64,000 nt of DNA from contig JABFGI010000009.1 of NCBI GenBank assembly GCA_013112535.1, positions 1 through 64,000 of the forward strand. The letters are read 5' to 3'. Made by a program: the position numbers and the translations under genes. Shown here piece by piece: positions 6,972 through 23,967 of this stretch. The notes under the pieces are model-generated. The model worked only from the letters and a program-made list of their open reading frames with translations, searched no databases and was not told the origin of the DNA. The first letter of the stretch is position 1. Every line of letters starts with the position of its first letter. This DNA comes from Pseudomonadota bacterium (GTDB lineage Bacteria > Pseudomonadota > Gammaproteobacteria > Eutrophobiales > Eutrophobiaceae).

Positions 6972-9456
<2,485 letters not shown>

Positions 9457-11817: not shown

Positions 11818-12291
11818 ATGCGAATTGGACACGGATATGATGTACATCGTCTTGTTGAAGACCGACCTTTAATTTTGGGTGGGGTGACTATTCCTCACGA
11901 AAAAGGTCTTGAAGGTCATTCGGATGCAGATGCTGTGATACATGCCTTATGTGACGCCATACTTGGTGCACTGTGTTCAGGGGATATTGGTAATCATTTT
12001 CCTGATACCGATCCGGAGTTAAAAAACGTCGACAGTCGTTTATTATTAAAACAAGTATTTAGTTTGATGAACGAGAATGATTACGAACTAGGCAATGCGG
12101 ATATCACTATTCTCGCACAAGCACCCAAGATGGCAGGATATATTCCGGCAATGAGAGAAATCCTGGCTAGTGATTTAAAATCAAAAGTGGAAAATATCAA
12201 TATTAAGGCCACAACCACAGAAAAGATGGGTTTCGTTGGCCTTGGAGAAGGCATAGCCGCGCATGCTGTCGTTTTATTAAAGTCTTTCTAG
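11818..12291 (+). CDS. ispF: 2-C-methyl-D-erythritol 2,4-cyclodiphosphate synthase
   Basis: Cyclises CDP-methylerythritol phosphate in the MEP pathway; forms a zinc-dependent trimer. The 157 residues contain the metal site GHGYDVHRL at the start, [15 protein letters not shown] near residue 34, and the C-terminal [14 protein letters not shown]. It ends the pyrG-ispF run. The final 21 codons have a divergent second copy at 17556-17618, a remnant beyond the rpf locus. Confidence 0.98.
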
Positions 12292-12448
12292 AATCAATTC
12301 ACAAAAATAGCTCTTCTTATAGCTGTAAAAAGTAATATAGTTTAAGGGCATCATCATTCGGTTTAGTGGCATTGTTCTCGTTATCTGTGAGATGAATGTT
12401 CTCAAAATCAAAGGATGATTTCTTTAATCAATAATAAGGAGATTCATT

Positions 12449-13372
12449 ATGAATACTGTCAGATACAGTAGTGAGGTTGAAAACTTCGAACAGTTTAATT
12501 TGAAAACTCAAACGAGTTTAGAAAATAATCTAGACGAGTATCATTTTTTACATCAAAAGTTTGATAGAGAAAGACGAATTTTGTGGCTGTATATGAAACC
12601 TGAAGGAAGACAATGTTTTTCAATAAATTTACTTAAAGACATGATGGCTCAGCATGAATTATTATTGGAAAATCATGGGATATATTATCATGAACATATT
12701 CCATACAAGGTGCATTATCAAGTGCTCACTTCGGAAGTTGGAACACCTTATAATCTTGGAGGGGATCTTGAGTTATTTATTAAGTATATAAAAGCTAAAG
12801 ATCGAACTTTACTTAGAGAGTATGCAAAGTTATGTATTAATGTATTGCATCCAACAGCAATTAATTTTGATTCTACTATAAAAACGATATCACTTGTTAG
12901 GGGGCAAGCATTAGGAGGTGGGTTCGAATCTGCTTTATCGAGTAGTCTTTTGGTGGCTGAGAAAAGTGCAAAACTAGGGTTGCCTGAAGTACTTTTCAAC
13001 TTGTTTCCAGGTATGGGAGCCTACCACTTATTAGCGAGGAGACTGCCAACCGCTCAAGTTGAAAAAATGATTTTAAGTGGAAGAGTATATGACGCTAAAG
13101 AACTCTATGACATGGGTGTCGTTGATATTTTAGCCGAAGATGGTGAAGGCGAAAAAGTAATCTATGATTATGTCGATAAACATAAACGCCATATTAATAC
13201 TCAAATTGGATTACAAAAGGCTCGGCAAATTTACCAACCGATTACACATTCGGAACTTATGCGTGTGTGTGACGTTTGGGTAGATGCAGCTATGCAATTG
13301 GAATCTCGTGACTTGAGAGTTATGGAACGTTTAGTGAAAGCCCAGTATAGAATGGGCTATGAGAAAAATTAA
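12449..13372 (+). CDS. rpfF: RpfF-like DSF synthase (crotonase superfamily)
   Basis: Predicted to make a cis-2-unsaturated fatty acid signal (diffusible signal factor), acting as acyl-ACP dehydratase and thioesterase. The 307 residues follow Xanthomonas RpfF in order: YNLGGDLELF near residue 101, GQALGGGFESAL with Glu160, GLPEVLFNLFPGMGAY with Glu180, and a C-terminal WVDAAMQLE. Glu160 and Glu180 lie 20 residues apart, as do the catalytic Glu141/Glu161 of Xanthomonas RpfF. These residues separate it from ordinary enoyl-CoA hydratases. A strong AAGGAG ribosome site precedes the ATG. It converges on rpfC, the same arrangement as in Xanthomonas. Confidence 0.92.
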   Translation: MNTVRYSSEVENFEQFNLKTQTSLENNLDEYHFLHQKFDRERRILWLYMKPEGRQCFSINLLKDMMAQHELLLENHGIYYHEHIPYKVHYQVLTSEVGTPYNLGGDLELFIKYIKAKDRTLLREYAKLCINVLHPTAINFDSTIKTISLVRGQALGGGFESALSSSLLVAEKSAKLGLPEVLFNLFPGMGAYHLLARRLPTAQVEKMILSGRVYDAKELYDMGVVDILAEDGEGEKVIYDYVDKHKRHINTQIGLQKARQIYQPITHSELMRVCDVWVDAAMQLESRDLRVMERLVKAQYRMGYEKN

Positions 13373-13486: not shown

Positions 13487-16024
13487 TTACACCTCAATAT
13501 TTTTCTTCATTTTTTTATATAGGTAGGTATAAAGTTTCTGTTTAGTCTCTGTGAATGTAGTTTCCAAATCAGAAAACTGACTATTTATCTTAGAGTCGTT
13601 TTTAGATTGACAGCTATCTAATAAACCATTACATATCTTAGCTAATCTTTTTGCTCCCACATGTCGTGAACTACCATCAATAGAATGGGCTAGTTCATAA
13701 ACATTTTCGTACATTTTTTTCTTTATTTCAGAATTTAGTTCTTCTATCAGATTTGTTGCCTCGTCAATATAATTATTAATAAGGTTTGGTAAAAAATTTT
13801 CTTCATTTGTCATGGAAGACAACATATCTAGAGCGTTAGTGTCTATAAGAGGTAATGCATAAGGATCATTGATGTTGATAATATTTAACATTGAATTATC
13901 ATTAAATGAACTATTTTTGTCTTTGATTAATCTTGATATGGAATCAAGTAACCTTTCAGGTTCAATAGGTTTTGTCAAATAAGCATCTAGCTGGGCTTCT
14001 TCGCAAGCATTTTTTGCTTCTTTTGTTGCATTAGCTGTTAAAATTATAATAGGTACATGTTTTTTATCGGGACACATAAAGCGATATATCTTAGCTGCTT
14101 CAATGCCTCCCATTACAGGCATTTGCATATCAAGTATAATTATATCAAATTCATTTTCTTCAAGAATATTGAGTGCTTCCTCGCCATTATTTGCCAAAGT
14201 AACAATGTGATTTTCAAATTCGAGAATATTTTTTATAACTTTCTTGTTAGTTTCATTATCTTCGCCGACAAGAATTCTTAAACTATCTAACTTAGAAGGG
14301 AAGTTTTCATCTTCTTCAGAATTTTTTTTGTTATCTGATGCTGTAATGTTAACGCCAGCAACAGCAGCATGGGTAATTCTAAAAAGTGTAGTTCTATCAG
14401 GTGAGCTATTGATGATTGATGTGTAACCCGAATTTAATAATTGAGAGTGTAGTGAAGGCGAAAGTTCATTATCATTAATTAGAATAAAAGATTGATTCCT
14501 TAAAGAAGAGTTAAGTCTCATCTCTTTTATAAAGTTAACTGGATCAGTATCTAAATGTTTTTGAAATACAAATATAATAGAGTAAGGGTTTCCTGTATTA
14601 TTTGATTTTAAATTCATACCGATGGCTTGTTCAACATTATCAGCACAATCAAATGTAATTGGCCATAATGATAAATAATTTTCAATAGACTGGTTTTCTT
14701 TTCTTATTGGGTTAACTATGAGTGCATGAGAGTTATATAAATGAATTATTGATTGATTTTCTTCTGATAATATTTCTTGTTGTTCAAATTCTACTTCAAA
14801 CCAAAAGGTTGTTCCTTTGCCCGGTGTACTATTAAAGTCAATTTCTCCATCTAGTGCTTCTACAAGTTGTTTGGCGATTGCCATCCCCAGACCTGTGCCA
14901 CCAAAATTACGAGTCGTCGATTCATCTGCTTGTGTAAACTTGCTAAACAATTTTGTTTTATCATGTTCAGAAATTCCGATTCCGGTATCTACAACTTCAA
15001 ACCTGATTCTGGTGTTTTTGGAATTAGATAAGACAGGTTTAACATAAATCTCAATAAAACCCTGGTTCGTAAATTTAATTGCATTACTAACCAAATTGAT
15101 AATAATCTGTTTAAGGTGAAGTCTGTCACCACGTAATAGAAAAGGCGTGTCTGCAGAAATATGTACATTAAATAATATATTTTTACTCTGCGCTTCTGGT
15201 GACAACATCATTGTTGTTGAGTTAATTAATGCATGCAAATCAAAATCAAGAGTTTCTATTGAAACCTTTCCAGCTTCTATTTTAGAAATATCCAAAATAT
15301 CATTAATTAGAGTTAAAAGAGTATTTGCGGAAGCATTTATTGTTGATGCAAAGTCTTTTTCTTTTGGTGGAAGTTCAGCTTTAGAAAGTAATGAACTCAT
15401 CCCAATGACGCCATTTAGTGGCGTTCGTATCTCATGGCTCATGTTTGCCAGGAATTGACTTTTAGCTTCGTTTGCAGCCTTAGCTTCATTAATTAGACGA
15501 TGCAATTTTGATATGAGTGATGACAGATAAGCAGTTAAGAATATAATCGAAAAAATTATTCCGTAGCTTAATATTTTTTGTTCTATCCAATATTCATTAT
15601 TGGTTATGACAATAGCAAAGCCAATTACACTCAAGCTTGAACTTGCGAAAAGGTATTTGTTTCCATAACGAAATCCATTGCCAAAAGATATCCATAGGTA
15701 CAAAAAGAATAATGATGAGCCAACATGGTTTGATAGGCATATCATATATGTAAGTGTGCTCATGTCGATGAACATGGCGAATATTCTACGAGAAACGGAT
15801 ATTTTATCTGAGAATAAAATTCGCACAAATAGAACCAAAGCTGTAACTAAGGCTGCGGAATTAACTATTAACAGATTTGTGTATTGATTGAGTGAGTCTT
15901 TAAAATAATAAAAGTAACCTGCCAGTAAAATTAAAATAATGATCCTTATTGCGCTTTGCTCAAATTCACTATCAGGACGATTTTTTAAGCGATATAATAT
16001 TAAATTTAGAGGTTTATTTTCCAT
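13487..16024 (-). CDS. rpfC: RpfC-like hybrid sensor histidine kinase (DSF sensor)
   Basis: This 845-residue inner-membrane sensor has several transmembrane segments (about residues 23-40, 50-70, 80-100, 105-140, 150-172) and a HisKA domain with the phospho-accepting His197 in [12 protein letters not shown]. An ATPase domain follows (NLVSNAIKFT near 312, DTGIGIS near 347, GGTGLGMAIAKQL near 375), then a receiver-like stretch at about 430-555 that lacks the Asp and Lys, a full receiver with Asp632 in ILDMQMP, and a C-terminal HPt domain with His780 in AHSIDGSSR. The layout matches RpfC, but the extra degenerate receiver makes it longer than Xanthomonas RpfC. It should sense the RpfF product. 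It lies downstream of rpfG and faces rpfF. Confidence 0.9.
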   Translation of the reverse strand: MENKPLNLILYRLKNRPDSEFEQSAIRIIILILLAGYFYYFKDSLNQYTNLLIVNSAALVTALVLFVRILFSDKISVSRRIFAMFIDMSTLTYMICLSNHVGSSLFFLYLWISFGNGFRYGNKYLFASSSLSVIGFAIVITNNEYWIEQKILSYGIIFSIIFLTAYLSSLISKLHRLINEAKAANEAKSQFLANMSHEIRTPLNGVIGMSSLLSKAELPPKEKDFASTINASANTLLTLINDILDISKIEAGKVSIETLDFDLHALINSTTMMLSPEAQSKNILFNVHISADTPFLLRGDRLHLKQIIINLVSNAIKFTNQGFIEIYVKPVLSNSKNTRIRFEVVDTGIGISEHDKTKLFSKFTQADESTTRNFGGTGLGMAIAKQLVEALDGEIDFNSTPGKGTTFWFEVEFEQQEILSEENQSIIHLYNSHALIVNPIRKENQSIENYLSLWPITFDCADNVEQAIGMNLKSNNTGNPYSIIFVFQKHLDTDPVNFIKEMRLNSSLRNQSFILINDNELSPSLHSQLLNSGYTSIINSSPDRTTLFRITHAAVAGVNITASDNKKNSEEDENFPSKLDSLRILVGEDNETNKKVIKNILEFENHIVTLANNGEEALNILEENEFDIIILDMQMPVMGGIEAAKIYRFMCPDKKHVPIIILTANATKEAKNACEEAQLDAYLTKPIEPERLLDSISRLIKDKNSSFNDNSMLNIININDPYALPLIDTNALDMLSSMTNEENFLPNLINNYIDEATNLIEELNSEIKKKMYENVYELAHSIDGSSRHVGAKRLAKICNGLLDSCQSKNDSKINSQFSDLETTFTETKQKLYTYLYKKMKKNIEV

Positions 16025-16043: not shown

Positions 16044-16190
16044 TTATTTGTTTTCTCGAATATTAATGATCTTATTTTGACTGGAAAATAATGCATCAAC
16101 GCAATCTGGATTGAAATGCTTTCCTTTTTCTTTCTTTATATATTCAGGGGCTTCGTCTAAAAGCCAGGCATTCTTATGGGAATGTCCTGA
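16044..16190 (-). pseudogene. 3' fragment of a second rpfG
   Basis: On the minus strand this stretch encodes a C-terminal tail related to intact RpfG. It contains KNAWLLD, YIKKEKGKHFNPDCVDAL and about 18 further codons to a stop at 16044-16046. By my alignment 19 of 30 positions match RpfG (KAAWSLD, YIKSEKGKHLDPDCVEAL). No start codon or upstream domains remain. It ends 20 bases before the rpfC start, exactly where an operonic rpfG would be expected, while the intact rpfG lies just beyond it. Confidence 0.8.
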
Positions 16191-16227
16191 CAATTAATTA
16201 TAAGCCTTACACAGATTTAATGTGAAA

Positions 16228-17283
16228 TTAGGTTGTTATATCATCTGTTTTTTCAAGTAACGCCTCAACACAATCAGGATCAAGATGTTTTCCTTTTTCA
16301 CTTTTAATATAATTAATCGTTTTATCTAATGACCACGCAGCTTTATAAGGTCTATGATTTGTTAAAGAATCAAATACATCAGCAACGGCAACTATTCTAG
16401 CTTCTATCGGTATGTCATTAGCTGAAATTCCATATGGATATCCTGTGCCATTGTATTTCTCATGATGGTTTAATGCGATTAATGCACCGGTTTGCAGATA
16501 CGGAGACGGGCTATCTTTTAAAATATCATAGCCTATCGTTGTATGAGTTTTCATCTTTTTAAACTCGAACTCAGTAAGCTTTCCTCTCTTTAGAAGTATT
16601 TCATCTGGAATGGCAATTTTTCCAATATCATGTAAAGGTGAGGCAATTCTTAAAATATCTGCATTAGATTCATTTAGTCCTAGTTCAAGAGCAATAATGT
16701 AGCTTATGCGACCAATTCTTTCTAAATGTGCGCCGGTGACGCAGTCTTTATATGCACATGCTTTCGTCAGTCTATCGAGAGTTTCCTGTTCTCGAATATG
16801 TATTTCTTCTGATGATGCGTTTATTTTCTTTGTTAAAGATTGGCTGCGTCTTTTTAACTTTGATTGATGTTTTGCAAGTGACAGCAAATTTTTACATTTT
16901 GATTTGTATTCGGTTTTATCAAAGGGTTTATTTAAAAAGTCATTCACCCCATTTTCAAGAGCTTCATATAGTATTGCTCTATCTTTCATAATGGTGATCA
17001 TCATGATTGGAATGTCTTTACAGCCTGGTATACGACGAAGTTTCTTTGTGAATTCGATGCCGTTCATAACTGGCATTCTATAATCCGTAATAATCAAATC
17101 AGGTGATGATTTTTTTACTTCTTTAAGTGCTTCACTAGCATATTGAAAAGGTTTTATTAAGACTTTTTCATCGATATTTTTTAATGTTTCAGCAAGAATA
17201 TCAAGGCTGGAAGCTTGGTCATCTATAATCATAATCGTTGATGTGAACTGCTTTTCAGATAGCTTTTTAAATGATAAGAGCAT
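16228..17283 (-). CDS. rpfG: RpfG-like response regulator with HD-GYP domain
   Basis: This 351-residue cytosolic regulator has a receiver domain (residues about 15-135; phospho-acceptor Asp67 in IITDYRMP, conserved Lys119 in NKPF), a helical linker, and an HD-GYP domain. That domain has the metal-binding HDIGKIAIPD (His218-Asp219) and HHEKYNGTGYP (GYP at 281-283), so it looks catalytically complete. The predicted role is cyclic di-GMP hydrolysis on phosphorylation by RpfC. It is transcribed before rpfC, with a relic of another rpfG between them. The upstream 270 bases presumably hold the operon promoter. Confidence 0.9.
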   Translation of the reverse strand: MLLSFKKLSEKQFTSTIMIIDDQASSLDILAETLKNIDEKVLIKPFQYASEALKEVKKSSPDLIITDYRMPVMNGIEFTKKLRRIPGCKDIPIMMITIMKDRAILYEALENGVNDFLNKPFDKTEYKSKCKNLLSLAKHQSKLKRRSQSLTKKINASSEEIHIREQETLDRLTKACAYKDCVTGAHLERIGRISYIIALELGLNESNADILRIASPLHDIGKIAIPDEILLKRGKLTEFEFKKMKTHTTIGYDILKDSPSPYLQTGALIALNHHEKYNGTGYPYGISANDIPIEARIVAVADVFDSLTNHRPYKAAWSLDKTINYIKSEKGKHLDPDCVEALLEKTDDITT

Positions 17284-17555
17284 AATTGAATATTTCTTTT
17301 TTAGTTATGGTAAATATAACGTAAAGTTTACTGAGTATAGCTAATAAGGCATTGTTTTTTCAAATAATTAATAAATATCTTCTGTTTGTCCAAAAATTTA
17401 GTGCAAAATTAAAGTAAAAACATCAGCTCTTTGACGTAAGTAGTTGTTTACTTGCTTTATTGGGGCGTCTTTTTCGAAACTATTTTTTTACAACAAGAGA
17501 AAAGTTAAACAAATTATTTAGCTCTAAGGTTGAAAATATGATTTTTAAATGAAGA
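17284..17555. other. AT-rich intergenic DNA upstream of rpfG
   Basis: No gene or recognisable RNA is visible between the rpfG start and the ispF-like fragment. It presumably carries the rpfG-rpfC promoter on the minus strand, but no convincing -35/-10 pair or regulator box stands out. Confidence 0.4.
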
Positions 17556-17618
17556 ATGGGCTTCATTAGTCTTGGAGAAGATATTGCCGTACATGCGGCT
17601 ATTCTATTAAATAGATTC
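17556..17618 (+). pseudogene. 3' end of a second ispF
   Basis: Twenty-one codons starting at an ATG read MGFISLGEDIAVHAAILL and then NRF. They match the C-terminus of the intact IspF ([18 protein letters not shown], then KSF) at 13 of 21 positions. No upstream ispF sequence is present. It lies directly against the 3' end of the degraded rpfC copy, as intact ispF lies upstream of rpfF and rpfC, and so marks the edge of a duplicated or imported segment. Confidence 0.85.
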
Positions 17619-17619
17619 G

Positions 17620-18741
17620 TTATTTTTTATCTTCTAAAATTAAATTTAGTGCAACTTTTGTTTGTTTAAATATAAAATAAAGTCCTTGTAGATGATCTTG
17701 CGATAAAGATACATTTTTTTCTTTATTAATTTAGACAAAGTACTGAACAGTACTAGCCATTTCTTGTCCCTATAGAACATGATCTGCCATCCAGCTTATG
17801 AAAAACATTTCTTGTTTCATCATTGTCAATATTTTCTACTAATGTTGTTAATTGTTCCACCATTTATGCAGTATCGTTTACATAACCGTCAATAACATCG
17901 CGTATAAAAATTATTTTTAGACATAGAAAACAATGTGTCTAATGCTTCTGTATCAAGTAATGATGAATGATTTGTATAATTTTTCTTGTTTAACTATCTA
18001 CTATCCTTAACTAATCAAGAAATAGTTTCGAGAAATTCATCAGGTTCAATGGGTTTGGTTATATAAGCATCGACATTCGCTTCATTGTATTATTAAGTTG
18101 CTTCGGTTGTTGCATTTGCGATTAAAATTTAAACAGGTGTATTTTTTTGAGGGTGGCTAATATAAAAAAGTTTTGCTGCTTCTATCTTGGAAATATCAAG
18201 AATATCATTGATTAATGACAATAGTGTTTTTGCAGAAGCATTAATCGTTGATGAATAGTCTTTTTGTTTTTCATCAAGCTGTGTTGTCGAGAGCAAGAAA
18301 CTCATTCCGATAATTCCGTTGAGTGGCGTCCGAATTTCATGGCTCATGTTTGACAGAAACCGGGACTTTGCCTCGTTAGCAGTTTTCGCGTTAGCAACTG
18401 CAGCATGCAATTTATTAATAAGTAGCGAGATATATAAAGATAATGCGATCGTAATAATGAAGAAACTATGGGCAAGATTCTTTTGTCCTTACCAGAATGG
18501 GCTAAAGTTTATGACGATACTAAAGCTGATAATACTGAATATAGTGCTGACTATTAGAAGCTGCTTGCCAAAGCGAAGGCCATTACCAAAGGTTATCCAT
18601 AAATACAGAAAGATTAATGGTGTTCCTGCATCATTAGATATGTAAATCATATAGGTCAGTATGGCCATATCCAGAAAGGCCGTTATGATTTTAAATGCAA
18701 TTGTCTTCTTTTATTTGTTTAATTAGTACTTTAATTTTCAT
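17620..18741 (-). pseudogene. Degraded second rpfC (internal deletion, frameshifts and stops)
   Basis: Minus-strand pieces occur in the same order as in the intact RpfC: membrane part (FLDMAILTYMIYISN, then LYLWITFGNGLRFG) at about 18530-18690, HisKA ([28 protein letters not shown]) at about 18180-18360, receiver C-terminus (DAYITKPIEPDE) near 18040-18090, and HPt remnant (HKLDGRS) near 17800. The ATPase, degenerate receiver and first half of the true receiver are missing; HisKA is joined straight to the receiver at a shared Ile-Glu-Ala-x-Lys. Several stops interrupt the receiver part and the HPt part is in another frame. A short intact reading frame at 18129-18410 covers HisKA only. Confidence 0.88.
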
Positions 18742-18747
18742 TATGTA

Positions 18748-19290
18748 TTAATTCCGTTTTAATAATAAATATATAGCTCCTGTACCACCATCTACTTGTT
18801 GTGCAGAACAAAAGGCCAACGCATCATTTCTTTGGCGTAACCAGTGATTTACCTTGTTTTTAATAACAGGCTTCATATTTTCCGAACCTATACCTTTGCC
18901 ATGAATTATACGAACACATCGCAATGAACGCATATGACAATCTGCAAGAAAGTTTGATAATTCAGTCCTTGCCATTTCAACCGTTAACCCATGCAAATCA
19001 AGTTCATCTTCTATTTTGAATTGACCGCGGCGTAACTTCCTTATGGTCTGTTTTTGAATATCGGGTCGGGAAAAAAACAGTTCATCTCCTCTTTCCAGCA
19101 GGTTCTGATCATATTCGCTATCGTATAATTCCTGCATGGCAGGGCGATCATCTTGTTTTATTCTGGATGGAGTGGCTGAAGGTTTGGCTTTATCGTGAAC
19201 AACACTATCCTGTTTTAACGGTTTTATCTTGCCAACCGCTTCCCTGAACATGGCACTGTCTTCTTCAGAAATAGTTGTTGATTTCTTCAT
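18748..19290 (-). CDS. Smr-domain protein (SmrA/SmrB-like)
   Basis: A 180-residue protein ending in a Smr domain, the nucleic-acid-binding/nuclease domain found at the end of MutS2 and in SmrB, which cleaves mRNA at collided ribosomes in E. coli. Domain motifs are LDLHGLT near residue 95 and IHGKG near 128, with a GGTGAIYLLLK end. I prefer the ATG at 19290 (MKKSTTISEEDSAMFREAV), which matches the start of E. coli SmrB, over a TTG seven codons upstream. The final assignment to SmrA or SmrB is uncertain. It sits directly after the rpfC relic. Confidence 0.85.
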   Translation of the reverse strand: MKKSTTISEEDSAMFREAVGKIKPLKQDSVVHDKAKPSATPSRIKQDDRPAMQELYDSEYDQNLLERGDELFFSRPDIQKQTIRKLRRGQFKIEDELDLHGLTVEMARTELSNFLADCHMRSLRCVRIIHGKGIGSENMKPVIKNKVNHWLRQRNDALAFCSAQQVDGGTGAIYLLLKRN

Positions 19291-19386
19291 TGTGCTATCA
19301 GCAACGACCAAATCAGCAAAGTTTATAGTATGAAAAGATTAATGTCAGTCTGTCACATGTAAATAATGTGAAAAGTGGATAAATTT

Positions 19387-23383: not shown

Positions 23384-23638
23384 ATGCAGCGGAAGCATAA
23401 AAAGACATTGGAGTTAATTTATAGTCGACCAACAAGTGGCAACATTAACTGGTCTGATATTGAATCGCTATTTAAGGAACTTGGCGCTGATGTGTCCGAG
23501 AGAGCAGGTTCCAGAGTAGCTGTTGTGCTTTTTGGTGAAGTTCGAGTTTTTCATAGACCGCACCCTTCTCCGAATACTGATAAAGGTGCTGTTGCCAGTA
23601 TTCGTAAGTGGCTGGAAGTGAACGAGGTAGAGTTATGA
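23384..23638 (+). CDS. hicA: HicA-family toxin (mRNA interferase)
   Basis: This 84-residue protein fits the HicA family, small double-stranded-RNA-binding-fold toxins that cut mRNA. It shows HKKTLELIYSRPTSGNINW at the start, EERAGSR-type residues (ERAGSRVAV) near 39, the presumed active-site histidine in VFHRPHP near 55, and a C-terminal helix VASIRKWL. It is followed by hicB with an ATGA stop-start overlap, the standard toxin-first order of hicAB. A palindrome directly upstream supports autoregulation. Confidence 0.88.
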   Translation: MQRKHKKTLELIYSRPTSGNINWSDIESLFKELGADVSERAGSRVAVVLFGEVRVFHRPHPSPNTDKGAVASIRKWLEVNEVEL

Positions 23639-23967
23639 ATATTTTGGAAGTTGATGGTTATAAAGCAAAGATTGAATATGACGCTGATTCCGATCAGTTT
23701 CGTGGTGAAATACTGGGGCTAAATGGTAGTGCCGATTTTTATGGCAAAAGCCTGGCTACTTTACGTAAAGAATTTAAAAAATCCTTAAAGGTGTATCTGG
23801 AAGTTTGCGAAGAAAAAGGTATCAGTCCGACAAAAGAATATTCCGGAAAATTTAATCTTAGAGTTCCTCCAGGTTTACACAGTGAGATAGCTGCTCGCGC
23901 AACAGGTGAAAATAAAAGTATTAATCAGTGGGTTGTTGAGACGCTTAAGAATTCAGTTTCTTCATAA
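23635..23967 (+). CDS. hicB: HicB-family antitoxin
   Basis: This 110-residue antitoxin has an N-terminal HicB fold (YKAKIEYDADSDQFRGEI, with the usual LRKEFKKSLKVYLEVCEE helix) and a C-terminal ribbon-helix-helix DNA-binding part (NLRVPPGLHSEIAARA, then KSINQWVVETL). I choose the ATG at 23635, which overlaps the hicA stop, over a GTG at 23608 lying inside hicA. The DNA-binding tail fits the palindrome at 23353-23379. Confidence 0.9.
   Translation: MNILEVDGYKAKIEYDADSDQFRGEILGLNGSADFYGKSLATLRKEFKKSLKVYLEVCEEKGISPTKEYSGKFNLRVPPGLHSEIAARATGENKSINQWVVETLKNSVSS

Follow-up and report, generated by a model that had tools for sequence, protein, structure and literature searches.

Relic of a second ispF gene as the probable trace of an old tandem duplication in a repeatedly recombined DSF-type rpf locus

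Tandem duplications with a novel joint arise in bacteria by illegitimate recombination. The locus described here, located within an analyzed stretch of DNA of 64,000 nucleotides (referred to as the window), resembles such duplications in several respects: it has the form of a same-strand repeat of several genes, in which truncated end genes meet at one joint and the whole end genes lie outside, with most of one copy apparently lost at a later stage. It differs from them in being old and fossilized, with a joint too decayed to show microhomology and a second copy reduced to the tail of ispF and a dead rpfC. No description of such a seam was found in the literature on rpf duplications, and the literature on duplication joints yielded general papers only.

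Variation at a comparable locus has been described in Stenotrophomonas maltophilia, in which related strains differ in rpfF and in the input domain of RpfC at one locus (variants rpf-1 and rpf-2), a variation attributed to horizontal exchange (PMC4517397). The related bacteria compared in this study likewise differ in their rpfF genes and in the input part of RpfC. However, the exchanges seen in the window appear to be intragenic (rpfF from codon 10; the sensor as opposed to the kinase part of RpfC), and they are accompanied by a duplicated locus. A further gammaproteobacterial locus of similar organization, that of Methylohalomonas lacus (L083), contains eno-ispD-ispF-rpfF-rpfC-rpfG-smr-purL and encodes an RpfF protein with 60% identity to that of the window, but is present in a single copy in which no relics were seen.

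The window is part of genome G000, whose closest genomes, as judged by PurL and IspF, are G003 and G004. The usual gene order in the GTDB family of these bacteria, as well as in M. lacus, is eno-ispD-ispF-rpfF-(fatty-acid desaturase)-rpfC-rpfG-smr-purL, and a single ispF-to-smr interval is present in G009, G011, G005, G015, G012 and others. The window has a different arrangement: a whole ispF, rpfF, rpfC, rpfG and the tail of an smr gene are followed by the tail of an ispF gene, the relic of a second rpfC (rpfC2) and a whole smr. The genes at the outer edges are the intact ispF on the left (11818–12291, + strand; TIGR00151, 221 bits, above the cut-off), which groups with those of G003 and G004, and the intact smr on the right (18748–19311, − strand; Pfam Smr), whose orthologs are located beside purL in relatives. 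The strands of the two relics match those of the whole genes. Elsewhere in the window (23608–23967), a small ORF resembles a HicB-type antitoxin, as judged by eye from its translation.

The relic of the second ispF 3′ end (ispF′) occupies positions 17491–17618 (+ strand). It contains the 63 bases (17556–17618, + strand) singled out in the initial annotation, which translate as MGFISLGEDIAVHAAILLNRF; the 13 matches to the C-terminus of IspF reported for these 21 codons were reproduced exactly upon alignment with the intact protein. The relic is longer than this segment, with in-frame similarity extending upstream to ~17491 (TREKL...SKVEN...K*RMGF), interrupted by one in-frame stop codon and a 4-codon gap. 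A six-frame search of the whole genome identified ispF′ as its sole second IspF match (E value of 2e-5). The direct contact with a decayed rpfC, also reported initially, was borne out by the position of the stop codon of the rpfC2 relic itself (17620–17622, − strand).

Across the seam from ispF′, a remnant encoding the C-terminal portion of Smr (smr′) was identified at positions 17419–17475 (− strand), at what would be the right end of the first copy. It reads EKDAPI--KQVNNYLRQRADV, compared to EKKQPIIKNKVNNWLRQRDDV in Smr of G004, carries the clade-like motif VNN-LRQR, and is located immediately upstream of rpfG; its side and strand are those of smr in single-copy relatives. Its alignment score of 53 was reached by none of 1000 shuffles, although by a narrow margin (best shuffle, 51). 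A homologous, more decayed smr relic is present in G003 (L031, ~8504–8555), with a score of 44 compared to 41 for the best shuffle (0/1000). Both truncated relics of the window end at the presumed duplication joint, a stretch of ~15 bases of decayed sequence (17476–17490), and come together at a single site between the two copies, the evidence for smr′ being moderate.

The decayed second rpfC (17620–18716, − strand) contains several stop codons and an internal deletion fusing ~aa 254 to ~aa 640. With 81% identity over 177 aa to rpfC2 of G003, and with DNA alignments to both G004 and G003, it is, on these comparisons, orthologous to rpfC2 of both genomes. It is strongly diverged from the intact rpfC of the window (rpfC1), with 57% identity over 179 aa.

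In G004, an intact ispF is directly followed by a broken rpfC-like gene (rpfC2) and then by smr; there is no rpfF, rpfC1 or rpfG between ispF and rpfC2, and no rpfF anywhere else in this genome. The alignment of the window relic with G004 is continuous from the end of ispF, across the border and into rpfC2, and the ispF′-rpfC2 pair therefore represents a border of the G004 type. The order in G003 is ispF-rpfF-desaturase-rpfC1-rpfG-rpfC2-smr. The DNA of the window matches that of G003 upstream of rpfG to ~17473 and again from 17622 onward, with ispF′ placed exactly between. In G003, the rpfC2 reading frame no longer stops at its former end but continues into the smr relic, and the junction in that genome is therefore derived. 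In G007, smr and rpfG are separated by a second rpfC, which is intact (L035, 9118–11652) and is absent from the closely related G009; the seam was found in neither of these two genomes.

The 63 bases are short and A+T-rich, and the similarity is interrupted by a stop codon further upstream, so a coincidental resemblance to the end of ispF had to be considered. However, ispF′ scored 100 against IspF of the clade, while the maximum for dinucleotide shuffles was 55, i.e. none of 1000 reached even 56% of its score, and other genes of the window gave values of 24–44 with the same scoring. Moreover, the homology with G004 passes unbroken from the end of ispF into rpfC2. The genome search, the alignment and the shuffles show that ispF′ resembles the IspF C-terminus more closely than expected by chance; a fortuitous match, rejected on the shuffles, would be extraordinarily improbable, and the initial recognition of this segment as the tail of a second ispF is upheld. 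The origin of the relic proved to be different from that first proposed, namely import of the ispF-rpf block, edged by ispF′, from another lineage. Import would be in keeping with the divergence seen in both the relic and rpfC, and with the foreign body of rpfF (see below). On the other hand, ispF′ carries a Leu within MGF-x-x-L-GE that is found only in IspF of G000, G003 and G004, whereas all other sampled IspF proteins with a readable end contain Arg at this position, save one with Asn. This clade-only residue argues for descent from the G000/G003/G004 clade rather than from another lineage. In addition, the rpfC relic is orthologous to rpfC2 of the two closest relatives, and the intact ispF and rpfG group with these relatives as well. 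When ispF′ and the rpfC relic were compared with related genomes, both matched their own clade (the G004 border and rpfC2 of G003, respectively). It is most likely that ispF′ descends from this small clade, and its acquisition from outside, disfavored by the clade-specific residues and by synteny with G004, seems highly improbable. M. lacus was also rejected as the donor of the whole block, as only RpfF groups with Methylohalomonas. For the body of the intact rpfF, import is well supported, and the intact rpfC has probably acquired its sensor part in this way as well; the ispF′ segment appears not to have been affected.

A truncated smr meeting a truncated ispF on the inside, with whole copies of both genes on the outside, is the anatomy of a head-to-tail duplication, and ispF′ is probably the left edge of the second copy of an old duplication of this type, reaching from inside ispF to inside smr. 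A segment from ~codon 111 of ispF, across the rpf genes, to ~codon 147 of smr would have been doubled, leaving the whole ispF and the whole smr outside and a seam between the smr tail and the ispF tail in the middle of the array. The second copy would then have lost rpfF and rpfG, bringing the ispF tail directly against rpfC2, which would have decayed since. A single duplication may have occurred in an ancestor common to G000, G003 and (probably) G004. In G003, a deletion would have taken away ispF′ together with the end of rpfC2, while in G004 the first copy may have been lost by recombination between ispF and ispF′, leaving one ispF before rpfC2. Since the single-copy order from ispF to smr is common in the family and occurs in Methylohalomonas, the duplicated unit needs no other source. 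For the kinase part, a single clade uniting the rpfC1 and rpfC2 sequences of G000, G003 and G004 was not rejected (AU test, p = 0.45), as predicted by a duplication in the stem of this clade. The meeting of ispF′ and smr′ at the joint between the copies agrees with the initial description of the fragment as the edge of a duplicated rpf segment. The notion that an ispF-rpf block had been present twice was correct as regards duplication but too narrow as regards its extent, the unit having ended inside smr, as indicated by smr′. Comparison with the relatives did not reveal a single rpf locus in which the fragment is unrelated sequence.

Several observations nevertheless speak against a duplication. 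Between its ends, rpfC is found twice, but neither rpfF′ nor rpfG′ has left a trace in the second copy, and the model thus requires two losses. In addition, smr′ is a short relic scoring barely above the best shuffle. The sensor parts of rpfC1 and rpfC2 differ greatly from each other, and in this part the rpfC1 genes of G000 and G003 are not simple orthologs. The rpfC2-like gene beside smr in G007, which lacks a detectable seam, indicates that a second rpfC near smr can arise in another way; an independent insertion of this kind was rejected as the source of the window relic, as no seam or smr relic was found upstream of rpfG in G007, G009 and G011. The losses of rpfF′ and rpfG′ would be unnecessary if two alleles of the same small clade had been joined in one step, i.e. 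if a recipient of the G004 type (ispF-rpfC2-smr) had taken up the ispF-rpfF-rpfC-rpfG-smr tail of a neighbor by end joining inside ispF, which would produce an identical end structure. Exactly the allele needed for this is present in G004, rpfC1 and rpfC2 are strongly diverged, and exchange at the rpf locus is real. However, the G004 arrangement can equally well be the product of a loop-out between two ispF copies, and the signatures flanking the seam are clade-specific on either side, with no sign of two sources. The sequence data fit a stem duplication and a one-step joining of alleles within the clade alike; we consider such a joining to be rather unlikely. Under the favored tandem duplication, the ispF′ seam would be a scar in the genome without present function; the DSF-type genes at work are those of the first copy. 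The duplication scar is real and mostly ordinary, and is set within a repeatedly recombined DSF-type locus.

The intact DSF-synthase gene of this locus (12449–13372, + strand) encodes a protein that passed the NF006452 model (338 bits, compared to a cut-off of 177) and scored below the curated cut-off of the NCBIfam equivalog NF053515 (216.5 bits, compared to 550), for which RpfF-like is the fitting name. Residues E160 and E180, which we take to be the catalytic glutamate pair of the RpfF crotonase fold, are invariant in alignment A1. The protein was placed as the sister of M. lacus RpfF (support 100/100), and its grouping with its own family was rejected (AU test, p = 1.4e-5). Across the ribosome-binding region and codons 1–9 (window 12420–12475), the DNA is almost completely identical to that of G003, and this homology ends sharply after codon 9 (~12475), at the probable breakpoint of a replacement. 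Since the identity stops at this point, the body of rpfF has probably been replaced behind its native start, by a sequence of the Methylohalomonas type from codon 10. In relatives, a fatty-acid desaturase gene is located between rpfF and rpfC (L031, 3562–4644; L035, 15667–16752), and this gene, possibly a part of signal synthesis, is missing from the window, where it was probably lost.

The intact rpfC-like gene (13487–16024, − strand), located next to rpfF, encodes a hybrid histidine kinase with the architecture expected for RpfC: a putative membrane sensor followed by HisKA, HATPase, REC and Hpt domains (Pfam). Its kinase part groups with rpfC1 of G003 (91/95), whereas the sensor part (residues 1–185; window 15470–16024) groups with the rpfC2 group (100/99), and grouping of this part with rpfC1 of G003 was rejected (p = 6e-6). 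As the sensor and kinase trees disagree, RpfC was rejected as a single unit of descent. The intact rpfG-like response regulator gene (16228–17283, − strand) encodes Response_reg and HD_5 domains (Pfam), in agreement with a REC domain and an HD-GYP-type output. The protein is the sister of G003 RpfG, with a C-terminal half about equally near to G011 and G003. Between rpfC and this gene lies a relic of a second rpfG tail (16049–16202, − strand; tblastn E value of 1e-20 to G003 RpfG), which, counted from the alignment, is identical to the G003 tail at 25 of 37 positions and to the intact tail of its own locus at 20 of 37. The patterns observed for the rpfC sensor, the intact rpfG and its relic, and rpfF are marks of repeated recombination at this locus; RpfF is the only tract with an assigned donor lineage (Methylohalomonas-type).

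The seam explains the presence of a dead rpfC beside a working rpf locus, and one event would unite three present layouts, those of the window genome, G003 and G004. The duplication is ordinary as a mechanism and useful as a record. More speculatively, and with considerable doubt on our part, the two-copy DSF locus might have offered an opportunity to remodel the signal system, in which replacements took place while the copies coexisted: the synthase would have been replaced from codon 10 by a gene of another gammaproteobacterial lineage with retention of the native start, and the sensor part of the receptor would have been exchanged with retention of the kinase part. If this were true, signal specificity would have changed, in a manner comparable to the pherotype switching known from Gram-positive quorum sensing. 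The piecewise replacement of the synthase and of the receptor sensor makes a change in DSF signal specificity testable in a concrete case.
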